Shown: positions 15,274 to 22,692 of the stretch, in pieces
Layout: every line of letters begins with the position of its first letter
Numbering within the stretch: the stretch's first letter is position 1
Virus record (IMG/VR): IMGVR_UViG_3300010430_006936
Coordinates: 1-33,149 of that record
Strand: one strand, 5' to 3'
Source of the DNA: a virus
Length of the DNA: 33,149 bases
The notes under the pieces: generated by a model
The model's database searches: none
What the model was told of the DNA's origin: nothing
The model's input: only the letters and a program-made list of their open reading frames with translations
Made by a program: the position numbers and the translations under genes

Positions 15274-16305
15274 ATGAATTTAACCCCAATAGCTAAGGCT
15301 CACGTAAAAGAGTACTGCGCTGATATTGCAAAAAACTATCAAGTTGACGATGTGCATCATCAGTTCAGCGTCACTGCGCCGATGGAAATCAAGCTACGCG
15401 CCGCCATGCTTGAAGCCGTCGACTTTCTAAAACTTATTACAACTATGCCAGTGGACCAGATCCAAGGCCAAGTGGTTAAAGTGGGTAGTACATTAATTGC
15501 TACCGGTCGTAAAGAAAACGGTCGCTTTGTCAGTGGTCAAGATGTTGATGGCAACACTTATCAACTGGTTGAAACGGATTCCTGTGCGGCGGTGACTTGG
15601 GCAACCTTGTCGGTATGGGCTAATGCAGGTAACGCGAAACAGTTTATGAAACTGATGAGCCAGAACGCCACTCTGCGTTTTGCCCTGGATAAACTACGTG
15701 TTGGTTTTAACGGTACATCAGTCGCCAAGACAACGGATCCTGCGGGTAACCCATTGGGTGAAGATGTTAACAAGGGCTGGCAACAGATAGTGAAAGAGAA
15801 AGCGCCGTTGCAGATCATCATTGATCCTATCTATTTTAATCCTGATGGTGATGTGAATGCCCTGAAAGATAATGAGTATAAGACCCTTGACGCTATCGTC
15901 ACTGAGCTTAAAAATACTCACATTCACCCGACCTTGCGCACCGACCCTCGTTTGGTTGTTTGTGTTGGTAGTGATTTAACCGCCGCCGCTCAAGCTAGAG
16001 CTGCGAACCAAGCCGATACACCATCTGAGCGTGTAGCCGTTCAGAAGATGGATAAAACCATCGGTGGGTTAAATGCTTACACCCCGCCATATTTCCCTGC
16101 TAAGCGCATTACTGTGTGTTTGCTTCCTCATCTGCACATCTACACCCAGAAGGGTACGAGTCATCGTAAGTCTGAAAACGTAGAAGACCGCAAGCAGCAT
16201 GAAGATAAATATCTGCGTTGGGAAGGTTATGGCGTTGAAGAGTTAGAGGGGTATGCCTCTGTCGATGAAAGCGCCATGAACATTGGCGCAGTGCCAGCGG
16301 CTTAA
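15274..16305 (+). CDS. N: Major capsid protein (P2 gpN family)
   Basis: 343 aa, with GAGAG before its ATG. P2-type capsid features include the N-terminal region LKLITTMPVDQIQGQVVKVG at about residues 50-69, the NLD-like DKLRVGFNGTSVAKTTD segment, the GWQQIVKEKAP block and the C-terminal RYLRWEGY-like KYLRWEGYGVEELEGYASVDE. It forms the HK97-fold shell of the head and is processed by the gene O protease. It follows O by 59 bp in the late operon. Length is close to that of P2 N (357 aa). Confidence 0.93.
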   Translation: MNLTPIAKAHVKEYCADIAKNYQVDDVHHQFSVTAPMEIKLRAAMLEAVDFLKLITTMPVDQIQGQVVKVGSTLIATGRKENGRFVSGQDVDGNTYQLVETDSCAAVTWATLSVWANAGNAKQFMKLMSQNATLRFALDKLRVGFNGTSVAKTTDPAGNPLGEDVNKGWQQIVKEKAPLQIIIDPIYFNPDGDVNALKDNEYKTLDAIVTELKNTHIHPTLRTDPRLVVCVGSDLTAAAQARAANQADTPSERVAVQKMDKTIGGLNAYTPPYFPAKRITVCLLPHLHIYTQKGTSHRKSENVEDRKQHEDKYLRWEGYGVEELEGYASVDESAMNIGAVPAA

Positions 16306-16372: not shown

Positions 16373-16975
16373 ATGGCTGGTGCAATTGCGAATTTTAAAA
16401 AGCGTCGTCAAGCGGTACAGGCGAAGTCGAACCAAGCAGGTGTTGAGCATGATGATACGCCAGCTCCTGTAAATGAAGCGTTAGCGCTACTTGCTTACCT
16501 ACTCGGTTGTGATGAGAGCCAAGCCATTGACAAGGCCCGTGAAGCTGTAAAAGAAAAAGCCCGTTTCATTGAGGTCAATATTGATCTTGCTGCTGGCGAA
16601 GACAAAACAGTTATCGCAGAAGTGACTACAGATGATGGTGGCAACATCACCGACATTAAAACCGAATTAGCTGACGGCGCAGACTCAGTAACCGATGCCG
16701 CTGATAGCGTTATCCAAGCCGCTGACTCTGTAAGTCAAGCCACAGCCAGTGTTGAAAGTGCCGCCAATGATGTGAGCGACTCAGCATCTGATATTAGCGA
16801 TGCAAGTCACGAAGTATCAAACAGCGCCGCCAGTATTGCCGATGCCACTGCCGATATTGCCGCCGCCGCTGATGAGATGAAAGAGGTGGTCAGTGAAGTA
16901 AAAAAATCACCGGCGGAGCCTTCATCCTCGCCATCAAAGAGCGAAACGAAGCCAGAAAAAAGCTCGAAAAAGTAA
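16373..16975 (+). CDS. Coiled-coil protein between capsid and terminase genes, probable frameshift donor
   Basis: 200 aa from the ATG at 16373 (AAAGGA 7 bp before; an upstream GTG at 16331 has no site). Residues 1-100 look like a small mixed domain. Residues 103-179 are eleven consecutive 7-residue units of the form A-x-x-V/I/M-x-x-A/S with no break, a very regular Ala/Val heptad coil with many Asp and Ser. The tail after residue 179 is a Ser/Pro/Lys-rich stretch. P2 has no gene here between N and M. Codons 177-178 are the AAA AAA of an A_AAA_AAA heptamer (16900-16906); a -1 shift there would join residues 1-178 to the terminase M frame. It may be a head accessory protein or the oligomerising arm of the terminase. 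I know no homologue. Confidence 0.75.
   Translation: MAGAIANFKKRRQAVQAKSNQAGVEHDDTPAPVNEALALLAYLLGCDESQAIDKAREAVKEKARFIEVNIDLAAGEDKTVIAEVTTDDGGNITDIKTELADGADSVTDAADSVIQAADSVSQATASVESAANDVSDSASDISDASHEVSNSAASIADATADIAAAADEMKEVVSEVKKSPAEPSSSPSKSETKPEKSSKK
16882..16932 (+). other. Predicted programmed -1 frameshift signal (coiled-coil gene to terminase M)
   Basis: Three dnaX-like parts are in order: an SD-like AGAGGTGG at 16882-16889, a 10-base gap, the heptamer A AAA AAA at 16900-16906 in the correct X_XXY_YYZ phase, then after 5 bases a small stem (GGCGG 912-916 with TCGCC 928-932, 11-base loop). A slip by -1 passes from the coiled-coil gene into the M frame. A missing A in the homopolymer run from sequencing error would look the same. 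Confidence 0.6.
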
Positions 16976-17652
16976 AGCAGTCCGGCTCTGCGTCCTATGC
17001 CCCAAGTTTGCATTTGCAACTGGCTGAACTCGATGAAGACCTAAAGCAGTTAAAAGCCTTTGTCAGACGTGAAGACAAGATAGCCCATAAACGTGATGTG
17101 TTGCTGCCAAAGTGGTTACCCATCGTTGATAAGTATTTGGCCGAGGTGGCCGCAAAGGAGATTGAACCCAGTGATCACCCTATTTTTGCTCGTTGCATTA
17201 TTTGGCTGTTCGATGTTTCTGACTATGGCCGAGCCCTTGAATTCGCCTTTAAGGCTATCGAACTGGGTCAACCTAAGCCTGAAGGTATTCGCCGCGAGTG
17301 GCCGAGTTTTATCTCAGATACGGTATTCGACTGGGCAGAGACTCAGGCGGAACTTGGCCACAGTGTTGAGCCTTACTTCACTCAAGTGTTTAACCAGGTT
17401 GCAAACCATTGGCGCTTGGCTGAGCCAATCACGGCAAAGTTTTATAAGTTCGCGGGTTTGGCGCTACTGCGTGCAACAAATGGCGACGTTAAGCCAACGC
17501 AGGTGGGTGACATCGATACGCTACAAAAAGCTGATGGCTTATTAGAGAAAGCCGCCAGCTTGCATAAAGGCGTAGGCGTTAAAACCGTCAGAAACAAGAT
17601 TGATATGAGAATACGTGCACTAGAAGCATACGGCTCGAAAAAGCCAGGTTAA
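16906..17652 (+). CDS. M: Terminase small subunit / endonuclease (P2 gpM family), no standard start
   Basis: 248 codons of open frame from 16906. Strong similarity to P2 M around KRDVLLPKWLPIVD (P2 KRELLPFWLPWV), then helical repeats to a GVKTVRNKIDMRIRALE end. In P2 M about 62 residues precede the KRELL motif; here 61 residues lie between 16906 and it, yet this stretch holds no ATG, GTG or TTG except a TTG at 17008, which has no ribosome binding site and would remove 34 conserved-looking residues. The frame is closed by a stop at 16894-16896. Synthesis is therefore best explained by a -1 shift from the preceding gene, giving a 426-aa fusion. It cuts cos and packages with P. Confidence 0.85.
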   Translation: MTGGAFILAIKERNEARKKLEKVKQSGSASYAPSLHLQLAELDEDLKQLKAFVRREDKIAHKRDVLLPKWLPIVDKYLAEVAAKEIEPSDHPIFARCIIWLFDVSDYGRALEFAFKAIELGQPKPEGIRREWPSFISDTVFDWAETQAELGHSVEPYFTQVFNQVANHWRLAEPITAKFYKFAGLALLRATNGDVKPTQVGDIDTLQKADGLLEKAASLHKGVGVKTVRNKIDMRIRALEAYGSKKPG

Positions 17653-17792
17653 TAGTGCAGGGAACGACTCCCAACCCCTCCAGTGCATTGGCTGAGTGTT
17701 TAACGGGCGACCGCTAAAAACCACTGTGACGCCAACTGCACTGAACCTAATTAGCGAAACAGCCCTGAGCGGCAGTTGATGAGAGTATGAGC

Positions 17793-18248
17793 ATGAGCGG
17801 ATTTGGGTTTAATGCAGGTGGACAGGCAAGCATTGATATCGACAAAGACAGTGGCTGGCCTGCGCTGTCGTCGGGTGAATTTCGCACCCATCGTCGTATC
17901 CCTGAAACCTTCGAAGAGCAAGCCCTTGCCGACTCACTCAATCGCAGTGTTGCCGAAGTTCAGCAGCAGTTAACCGAGTACATTGCAGCGACCGACAAGG
18001 ATGTCCCCTTCGCCCTAGGTATTGGTTTGATCCCCGACTTTACTGATGCACAGATAAGCATCTATCGCGGGGCTGTTTATGCCCGTAGCCATGCCGATCT
18101 GTTGGGCTATTTTTCTGCAGTCGACCAAAAAGAGTCCGGCAATAACAAGGCGCAAGACCCTGAGCAGCAAGACACAATTTTAGCCCAAAGTAGTCGCGGT
18201 ATTCGTTTATTACTCGGCCTTGACCGTGTTGGAGTACACAGTTTATGA
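17793..18248 (+). CDS. L: Head completion protein (P2 gpL family)
   Basis: 151 aa from the ATG at 17793, where GAGAG has proper spacing (an in-frame ATG at 17787 is too close to it). The content resembles P2 L: an N-terminal region ending in WPALSSGEFRTHRRIP, and the central ETFEEQALADSLNRSVAEV helix, with an RSHADLLGYF segment. It closes the head-tail junction after packaging. The stop overlaps the next start (ATGA at 18245). The 140 bp between M and L have no gene, promoter or terminator I can identify. Confidence 0.85.
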   Translation: MSGFGFNAGGQASIDIDKDSGWPALSSGEFRTHRRIPETFEEQALADSLNRSVAEVQQQLTEYIAATDKDVPFALGIGLIPDFTDAQISIYRGAVYARSHADLLGYFSAVDQKESGNNKAQDPEQQDTILAQSSRGIRLLLGLDRVGVHSL

Positions 18249-22166: not shown

Positions 22167-22429
22167 ATCAAGTGGCAGATTGGGTGATGGTGGTGATTGC
22201 CTTTATGAGCTTAGTGCTGGGCGTGCTGGTACCACTATTTGTCAGTTTGTCTAATGCGCACAAAAGCACGGCCAAAGAGCTGAGCGACCATAAAACCCAT
22301 GTGGCAGAAAACTATGCCACCAAGGATGACGTAAAAGAGTTGGGCGATCGGATGGAACGCCAGATGAAAGACGGATTTAACAACCTCAAAGACTTACTAA
22401 CGACCAATAAAGATAAGGATGCAGCATGA
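22163..22429 (+). CDS. Small membrane protein of the lysis cassette
   Basis: 88 aa. An N-terminal hydrophobic helix (residues about 6-28, WVMVVIAFMSLVLGVLVPLFV) is followed by a coiled-coil region (KHVAENYATKDDVKELGDRMERQM type). This resembles XhlA-like or i-spanin-like proteins. It is coupled at both ends by ATGA overlaps, to the holin and to the tail chaperone. A lysis-control or spanin role is likely but unproven, and no matching outer spanin was seen. Confidence 0.65.
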   Translation: MNQVADWVMVVIAFMSLVLGVLVPLFVSLSNAHKSTAKELSDHKTHVAENYATKDDVKELGDRMERQMKDGFNNLKDLLTTNKDKDAA

Positions 22430-22692
22430 AAAAGACAGTGATTTTAACCATAGGCACCACAGAGTTTAAATTTGAACTCACCGTGAATGACCACTCTGAT
22501 TTTGTCGATAGCGTATCTCGCGGCGGCTCGATGTGCAGCGCCTCGCATAACTTTGTGATGCGCGCCATCGATAAGGAGCAGAAAGAGGAGTTTAAAAACT
22601 TACTCGCCGACTCACCAGGTGCAGAGGTTCAAATTGCGGGCACCTTGAAAGGTGAGTTCTCGCCGATTCTGGAAATTGCAGTAAAAAAATAA
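22426..22692 (+). CDS. Tail assembly chaperone, short form (Phage_TAC_10 family)
   Basis: 88 aa. KKTVILTIGTTEFKFELTVND, NFVMRAI and a GAEVQIAGTLKGEFSPILEIAVKK end match the Phage_TAC_10 family. The short form is made by normal termination at the TAA at 22690. The last two codons are AAA AAA in the A_AAA_AAA heptamer (22683-22689). It coats the tape measure during tail assembly, and lies just upstream of the tape-measure gene as usual. Confidence 0.88.
   Translation: MKKTVILTIGTTEFKFELTVNDHSDFVDSVSRGGSMCSASHNFVMRAIDKEQKEEFKNLLADSPGAEVQIAGTLKGEFSPILEIAVKK

Follow-up and report, generated by a model that had tools for sequence, protein, structure and literature searches.

In the window, the 33,149-nt stretch of viral DNA analyzed here, the + strand carries gene N, encoding a P2-type major capsid protein (15274–16305, from the ORF list), and after a short gap a gene for a 200-aa protein that runs from an ATG at 16373 to a TAA stop codon at 16973–16975. 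M, the terminase small subunit gene, lies at 16906–17652 in the -1 frame relative to this gene, whose frame we call the zero frame. Gene L, encoding a head completion protein, lies downstream at 17787–18248 (ORF list, and synteny with phage C5a). The order O-N-(new gene)-M-L is also that annotated in C5a and PY3, two isolate phages in which the new gene is listed as hypothetical. M and L are separated by 134 bases (17653–17786); gaps of ~100–170 bases occur at this point in other P2-like phages too.

The M frame matched PF05944 (E = 1e-29, 103.6 bits against a curated cut-off of 29.4) and PHROG 74, terminase small subunit (E = 2.7e-57). Its AF2 model (pLDDT 92) showed a confident fold of TPR-like helices, with a helix starting at residue 2 of the frame. 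A fold search with this model returned nothing from the PDB at E 0.001, and its single match in BFVD was a phage terminase endonuclease subunit.

To place this arrangement among other phages, we searched for relatives in viral contigs, isolate phages and bacterial genomes. All relatives at or above about 55% identity had the arrangement found in the window, which we refer to as the frameshift type, whereas those at or below about 50% that were read had an ATG-started M behind N and no arm gene (K139, phiO18P, HP1, ESSI-2, SMHB1, SW3, Yersinia 324 and others). In a tree of M, built without one divergent locus (L136), a branch with support 100/100 separated the 40 frameshift-type rows from the rest, making the frameshift type a single, fully supported clade. 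Its hosts are Shewanellaceae, Rheinheimera and Pseudoalteromonas, that is, Shewanella and related marine bacteria, and the virus of the window is nearest to Shewanella prophages. The upstream gene was followed by the heptamer described below and by M in 57 of 59 contigs; the other two are pieces that end there, so that among the 59 the upstream gene was not found without M except where the contig ends.

A base-by-base check agreed with the initial annotation that the M frame is open from 16897, after a TGA, and that its earliest ATG, GTG or TTG is the TTG at 17008–17010. This TTG is an unlikely start and is missing from many relatives; about ten loci have no ATG, GTG or TTG within the first 70 M codons, and no usable start was found in the clade. 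An ATG start for M, named beforehand as evidence against a frameshift, was looked for and was present in none of this clade, and the usual start directly behind gene N was likewise not found for M. In C5a and PY3, M is annotated from an inner start some 65 codons into the conserved frame. Database entries of this kind would thus lack about 65 N-terminal residues, the N-terminal helices included, together with the whole arm. Judging from the sequence, M seems to have no start codon of its own, and the only visible route to its synthesis would be a -1 frameshift from the preceding coiled-coil gene.

The 200-aa product of that preceding gene, whose translation was aligned with 25 homologues, consists of a basic N-terminal motif, a small LLAxLLGCD region, an acidic heptad-repeat coiled coil and a basic tail. 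Homologues begin with MSAIANFKKRR, usually have LLAxLLGCD, and carry the acidic heptad repeat into an ELKK at the slip site; the median net charge is +4 for the N-terminus, -22 for the arm and +4 for the tail of the unshifted product. The initial annotation had proposed a coiled-coil arm before M, and heptad periodicity in the segment entering the slip site (16670–16906) bears this out: hydrophobic autocorrelation peaked at 7 (0.49) and 14 (0.54), 266 of 301 pairwise gaps, which are not independent of one another, were multiples of 7, and the arm is common across the clade. Translation likewise agreed with the proposed Ser/Pro/Lys tail of the zero-frame product, which is basic. We rejected membership in a known family, as nothing exceeded a curated Pfam or NCBIfam cut-off and PHROG matches were weak; PDB matches of the arm-gene profile were mostly designed coiled-coil or helical proteins. 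The AF2 model of the upstream protein was of low confidence (pLDDT 56). The helix at residue 2 in the model of M suggests that the coiled coil may continue into M without a break. Arm length up to the slip ranges from 97 to 227 residues across relatives. The divergent locus L136 has the same heptamer, but its arm gene is just 75 aa long and lacks LLAxLLGCD, which would reduce the minimal conserved unit to the slip site preceded by the N-terminal motif and a short helix.

At 16900–16906 the + strand contains seven A residues, read in the zero frame as GTA AAA AAA and therefore forming A_AAA_AAA in the -1 phase, as a base-by-base check verified. An in-phase A_AAA_AA[A/G] inside the overlap of the two frames was present in all 73 distinct relatives (38 non-redundant), nearly always as A_AAA_AAG, and in 19 of 19 full-length matches from bacterial genomes, which partly coincide with prophages already counted in the 73 loci. 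The homologue search thus found the out-of-frame A run and the paired ORFs retained throughout, and no relative with eight A residues at the site, an outcome named beforehand as refuting. In the 73 loci the first lysine codon was always AAA and the second was AAG in 71 and AAA in 2. The codon 5′ of the two lysines was CTA in 39, TTA in 25, ATA in 4 and GTA in 5, and it was GCA at L136; the residue therefore varies while the third base is always A, in the 73 loci as in the genome loci. By comparison, leucine, isoleucine and valine codons elsewhere in these genes ended in A in 62 of 222 cases. Zero-frame third-position entropy was 1.48 bits 5′ of the heptamer and ~0 inside it. As judged from these counts, conservation of the heptamer at the codon level exceeds what the amino acid sequence would require. 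Its retention in 73 of 73 relatives rules out chance and sequencing error as the source of the heptamer.

Across the whole window, the likely genes (8455 codons) contain the same motif in phase only three times, and two of these occurrences were at the end of a frame overlapping a -1 frame, at M and at the tail chaperone. The tail-chaperone-like gene (22426–22692) ends in GTA_AAA_AAA_TAA, with its heptamer at 22683–22689, and continues in the -1 frame (KKINALVESIENNQLEQ...), which is the expected frameshift of the P2 E/E′ type. Phage C5a has the same A_AAA_AAA there and K139 has A_AAA_AAC near the equivalent place. We counted the use of A_AAA_AAA at this frame change of the same phage in favor of a frameshift at M.

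In E. coli, re-pairing of tRNA-Lys (UUU) on AAG makes such a motif slippery, and A_AAA_AAG is among the best heptamers, these giving ~0.3% shift without a stimulator and up to 3.7% with a good 3′ context (PMC4066793). With the search pattern used, tRNA-Lys was found only with anticodon UUU in the six host genomes.

The initial annotation had likened the surroundings of the heptamer to the layout of dnaX; the heptamer and the spacing of the Shine-Dalgarno (SD)-like element stood, while the stem did not. The SD-like element AGAGGTGG (16882–16889, + strand) ends 10 bases 5′ of the heptamer, the dnaX distance, and in the relatives pairing with the 16S tail is strongest between 18 and 10 bases 5′ of the heptamer (mean -3.4 kcal/mol, compared with a background of -0.6). 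A strong element was present in only about 14 of 38 relatives, however, and as a universal stimulator it is only partly supported. It overlaps conserved Lys-Glu codons, and the pairing peak may partly be a by-product of these. The small stem noted 5 bases 3′ of the heptamer did not hold up: it consists of 3 bp (GGC/GCC), has a z of +0.46 against shuffles and is not conserved. A conserved downstream stem-loop was also rejected, with RNAalifold values near zero and a mean z of about -0.4, as elsewhere in the genes, and together with the low rate of unstimulated shifting in E. coli this counts against a frameshift; not every bacterial frameshift case has a downstream stimulatory structure (PMC4066793). 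Just 3′ of the heptamer, a GGNGG (16912–16916 in the window) is invariant and SD-like in 37 of 38 relatives. As the next codon is also conserved in the M frame, GGNGG probably represents Gly-Gly of M; an effect on ribosomes is possible.

To locate where M-frame translation begins, we compared nonsynonymous and synonymous changes (N/S) in the two frames, using simple pairwise counts rather than tree-based estimates. In the M frame N/S fell from 1.37 before the heptamer to 0.59 over the following 18 bases and 0.23 beyond the overlap; in the zero frame it was 0.55 before the heptamer, then 1.6 and then 1.1. By these counts purifying selection changes frame exactly at the heptamer, which puts the beginning of M-frame translation there. 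This is far 5′ of 17008 and speaks against a start of M at that TTG, as well as at an ATC at 16924. The zero-frame stop codon begins 58–73 bases after the slip in all relatives, and at exactly 67 bases in 31 of 35. It is created by a valine codon of M, V23, which is GTA in 31 of 35 relatives compared to 93 of 437 other valine codons, and the keeping of the stop through this biased codon suggests that the unshifted form matters. The tail itself (16907–16975, bounded by the stop position in relatives) overlaps M and is not clearly constrained as a protein, its N/S being above 1; the argument for a function of the unshifted form therefore comes mainly from the kept stop codon.

Taken together, the best explanation, and one we hold to be very probable, is that M has no start and is made by frameshifting at the heptamer as a fusion to the arm, beside the 200-aa form. 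The frameshift step itself is strongly supported by the comparison of heptamer and selection, through which the main claim of the initial annotation, that M is made as an arm fusion by a -1 shift, holds across the clade. M would have lost its own start and be translated solely as the C-terminal part of the fusion. Ribosomes would initiate at ATG 16373 and read the coiled-coil gene, and at GTA_AAA_AAA (usually CTA or TTA_AAA_AAG) some would slip, both lysine tRNAs re-pairing one base back, and go on in the M frame to give an arm-terminase fusion, whose predicted length of 426 aa (178 + 248) matches that given initially. Unshifted ribosomes would stop at 16975, and their 200-aa product would share the arm but end in a basic tail. 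By our estimate, the share of ribosomes that shift would most likely lie between a few percent and tens of percent. As the two products would share the coiled coil, they may form mixed oligomers, as do DnaX tau and gamma, and the shift rate would then set the ratio of terminase-bearing to bare arms.

One alternative is that the shift merely gives M an oligomerization arm and that the unshifted 200-aa product has no function of its own, being a by-product. The N/S above 1 in the zero-frame tail after the slip, the wide variation in arm length and the 75-aa gene of L136 are consistent with this. A plain in-frame fusion of arm and M would then be expected in some of the 73 loci, however, and none was seen, while the zero-frame stop has been kept through the biased V23 codon; we consider a functionless by-product doubtful.

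Another possibility is that M starts by itself at the non-standard ATC at 16924, which lies 7 bases after GGCGG/GGAGG as a ribosome site. The spacing from GGNGG to ATC is good, and the GGNGG itself does not vary; in 37 of 38 relatives it pairs with the 16S tail. Such a start is nevertheless very improbable, as selection in the M frame already acts 5′ of the ATC, where codon 5 is GCN in 35 of 35 relatives with its third base free while the zero-frame residue changes, and as some relatives have CTC at that position. An ATC start would also leave the fixed heptamer and the xTA codon before it unexplained. A third possibility is transcriptional slippage, with RNA polymerase slipping on the A residues and ribosomes translating the altered mRNA in the ordinary way. 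It would give the same protein, and the window does have seven A residues, but 71 of 73 relatives have only A6 and then G, and a run of six A is usually too short for polymerase slippage; since the phase-specific X_XXY_YYZ pattern with its fixed G fits ribosomal slippage, we regard a polymerase-based shift as very improbable. Finally, a sequencing error or pseudogene, although the site is a homopolymer run, can be dismissed, given the identical arrangement in 73 distinct loci, including the isolate phages C5a and PY3.

Under the ribosomal frameshift, it could tentatively be proposed, with somewhat less than even confidence, that the arm serves to attach terminase either to the procapsid or to its large subunit and that the unshifted protein is the more abundant assembly partner; docking of this kind is a guess from the position of the gene and its basic N-terminal motif. 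It could be speculated further, though we think it rather unlikely, that the pair is a counterpart of Gag-Pol, in which an abundant assembly protein and a low-rate terminase fusion would give, through mixed coiled coils, a fixed number of terminases per procapsid.

Frameshift-made proteins of tailed phages are known mainly as tail chaperones and capsid extensions. In the open-access papers searched, we found no account of a terminase small subunit made by frameshifting. The only related mention in a large review of recoding is of a possible bypass in the terminase gene of a Streptomyces phage (PMC5009743), and the main text of systematic surveys does not name a terminase small-subunit frameshift (PMC3711429, PMC4066793, PMC10885494). 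The mechanism is of a known kind; what is new, as far as we can tell, is the gene concerned, the architecture and the lack of any other start. If correct, the arrangement would be a testable way for a phage to fix the amount of its packaging enzyme, and it adds a conserved recoding site in isolate phages.

The gpM proteins of the P2-like phages P2, K139, phiO18P, HP1 and ESSI-2 are homologous PF05944 proteins in the order O-N-M-L, but in these phages M follows N directly, starts at its own ATG and has no arm gene before it. Like the tail-chaperone frameshifts (lambda G/GT and P2 E/E′), the M site would express a pair of morphogenesis genes in short and -1-extended forms. It differs in gene and location, affecting the small terminase subunit downstream of the major capsid gene, and its extension is an entire conserved protein. 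In the capsid-protein extensions of T3/T7 gene 10 and Lactobacillus phage A2, and in retroviral Gag-Pol, a minority of the copies of a structural protein likewise gain a further domain at a set ratio; at M that domain would be a packaging subunit, and the protein before it is a coiled coil whose location is unproven. E. coli dnaX (tau/gamma) has an A_AAA_AAG heptamer in the same phase, an SD-like element about 10 bases upstream, and two products with a common N-terminal oligomerizing part, as we propose for the products here. On the other hand, the M site has no conserved downstream stem, and while the shift in dnaX yields the shorter product, that at M would yield the longer one, with the domain of an enzyme subunit.
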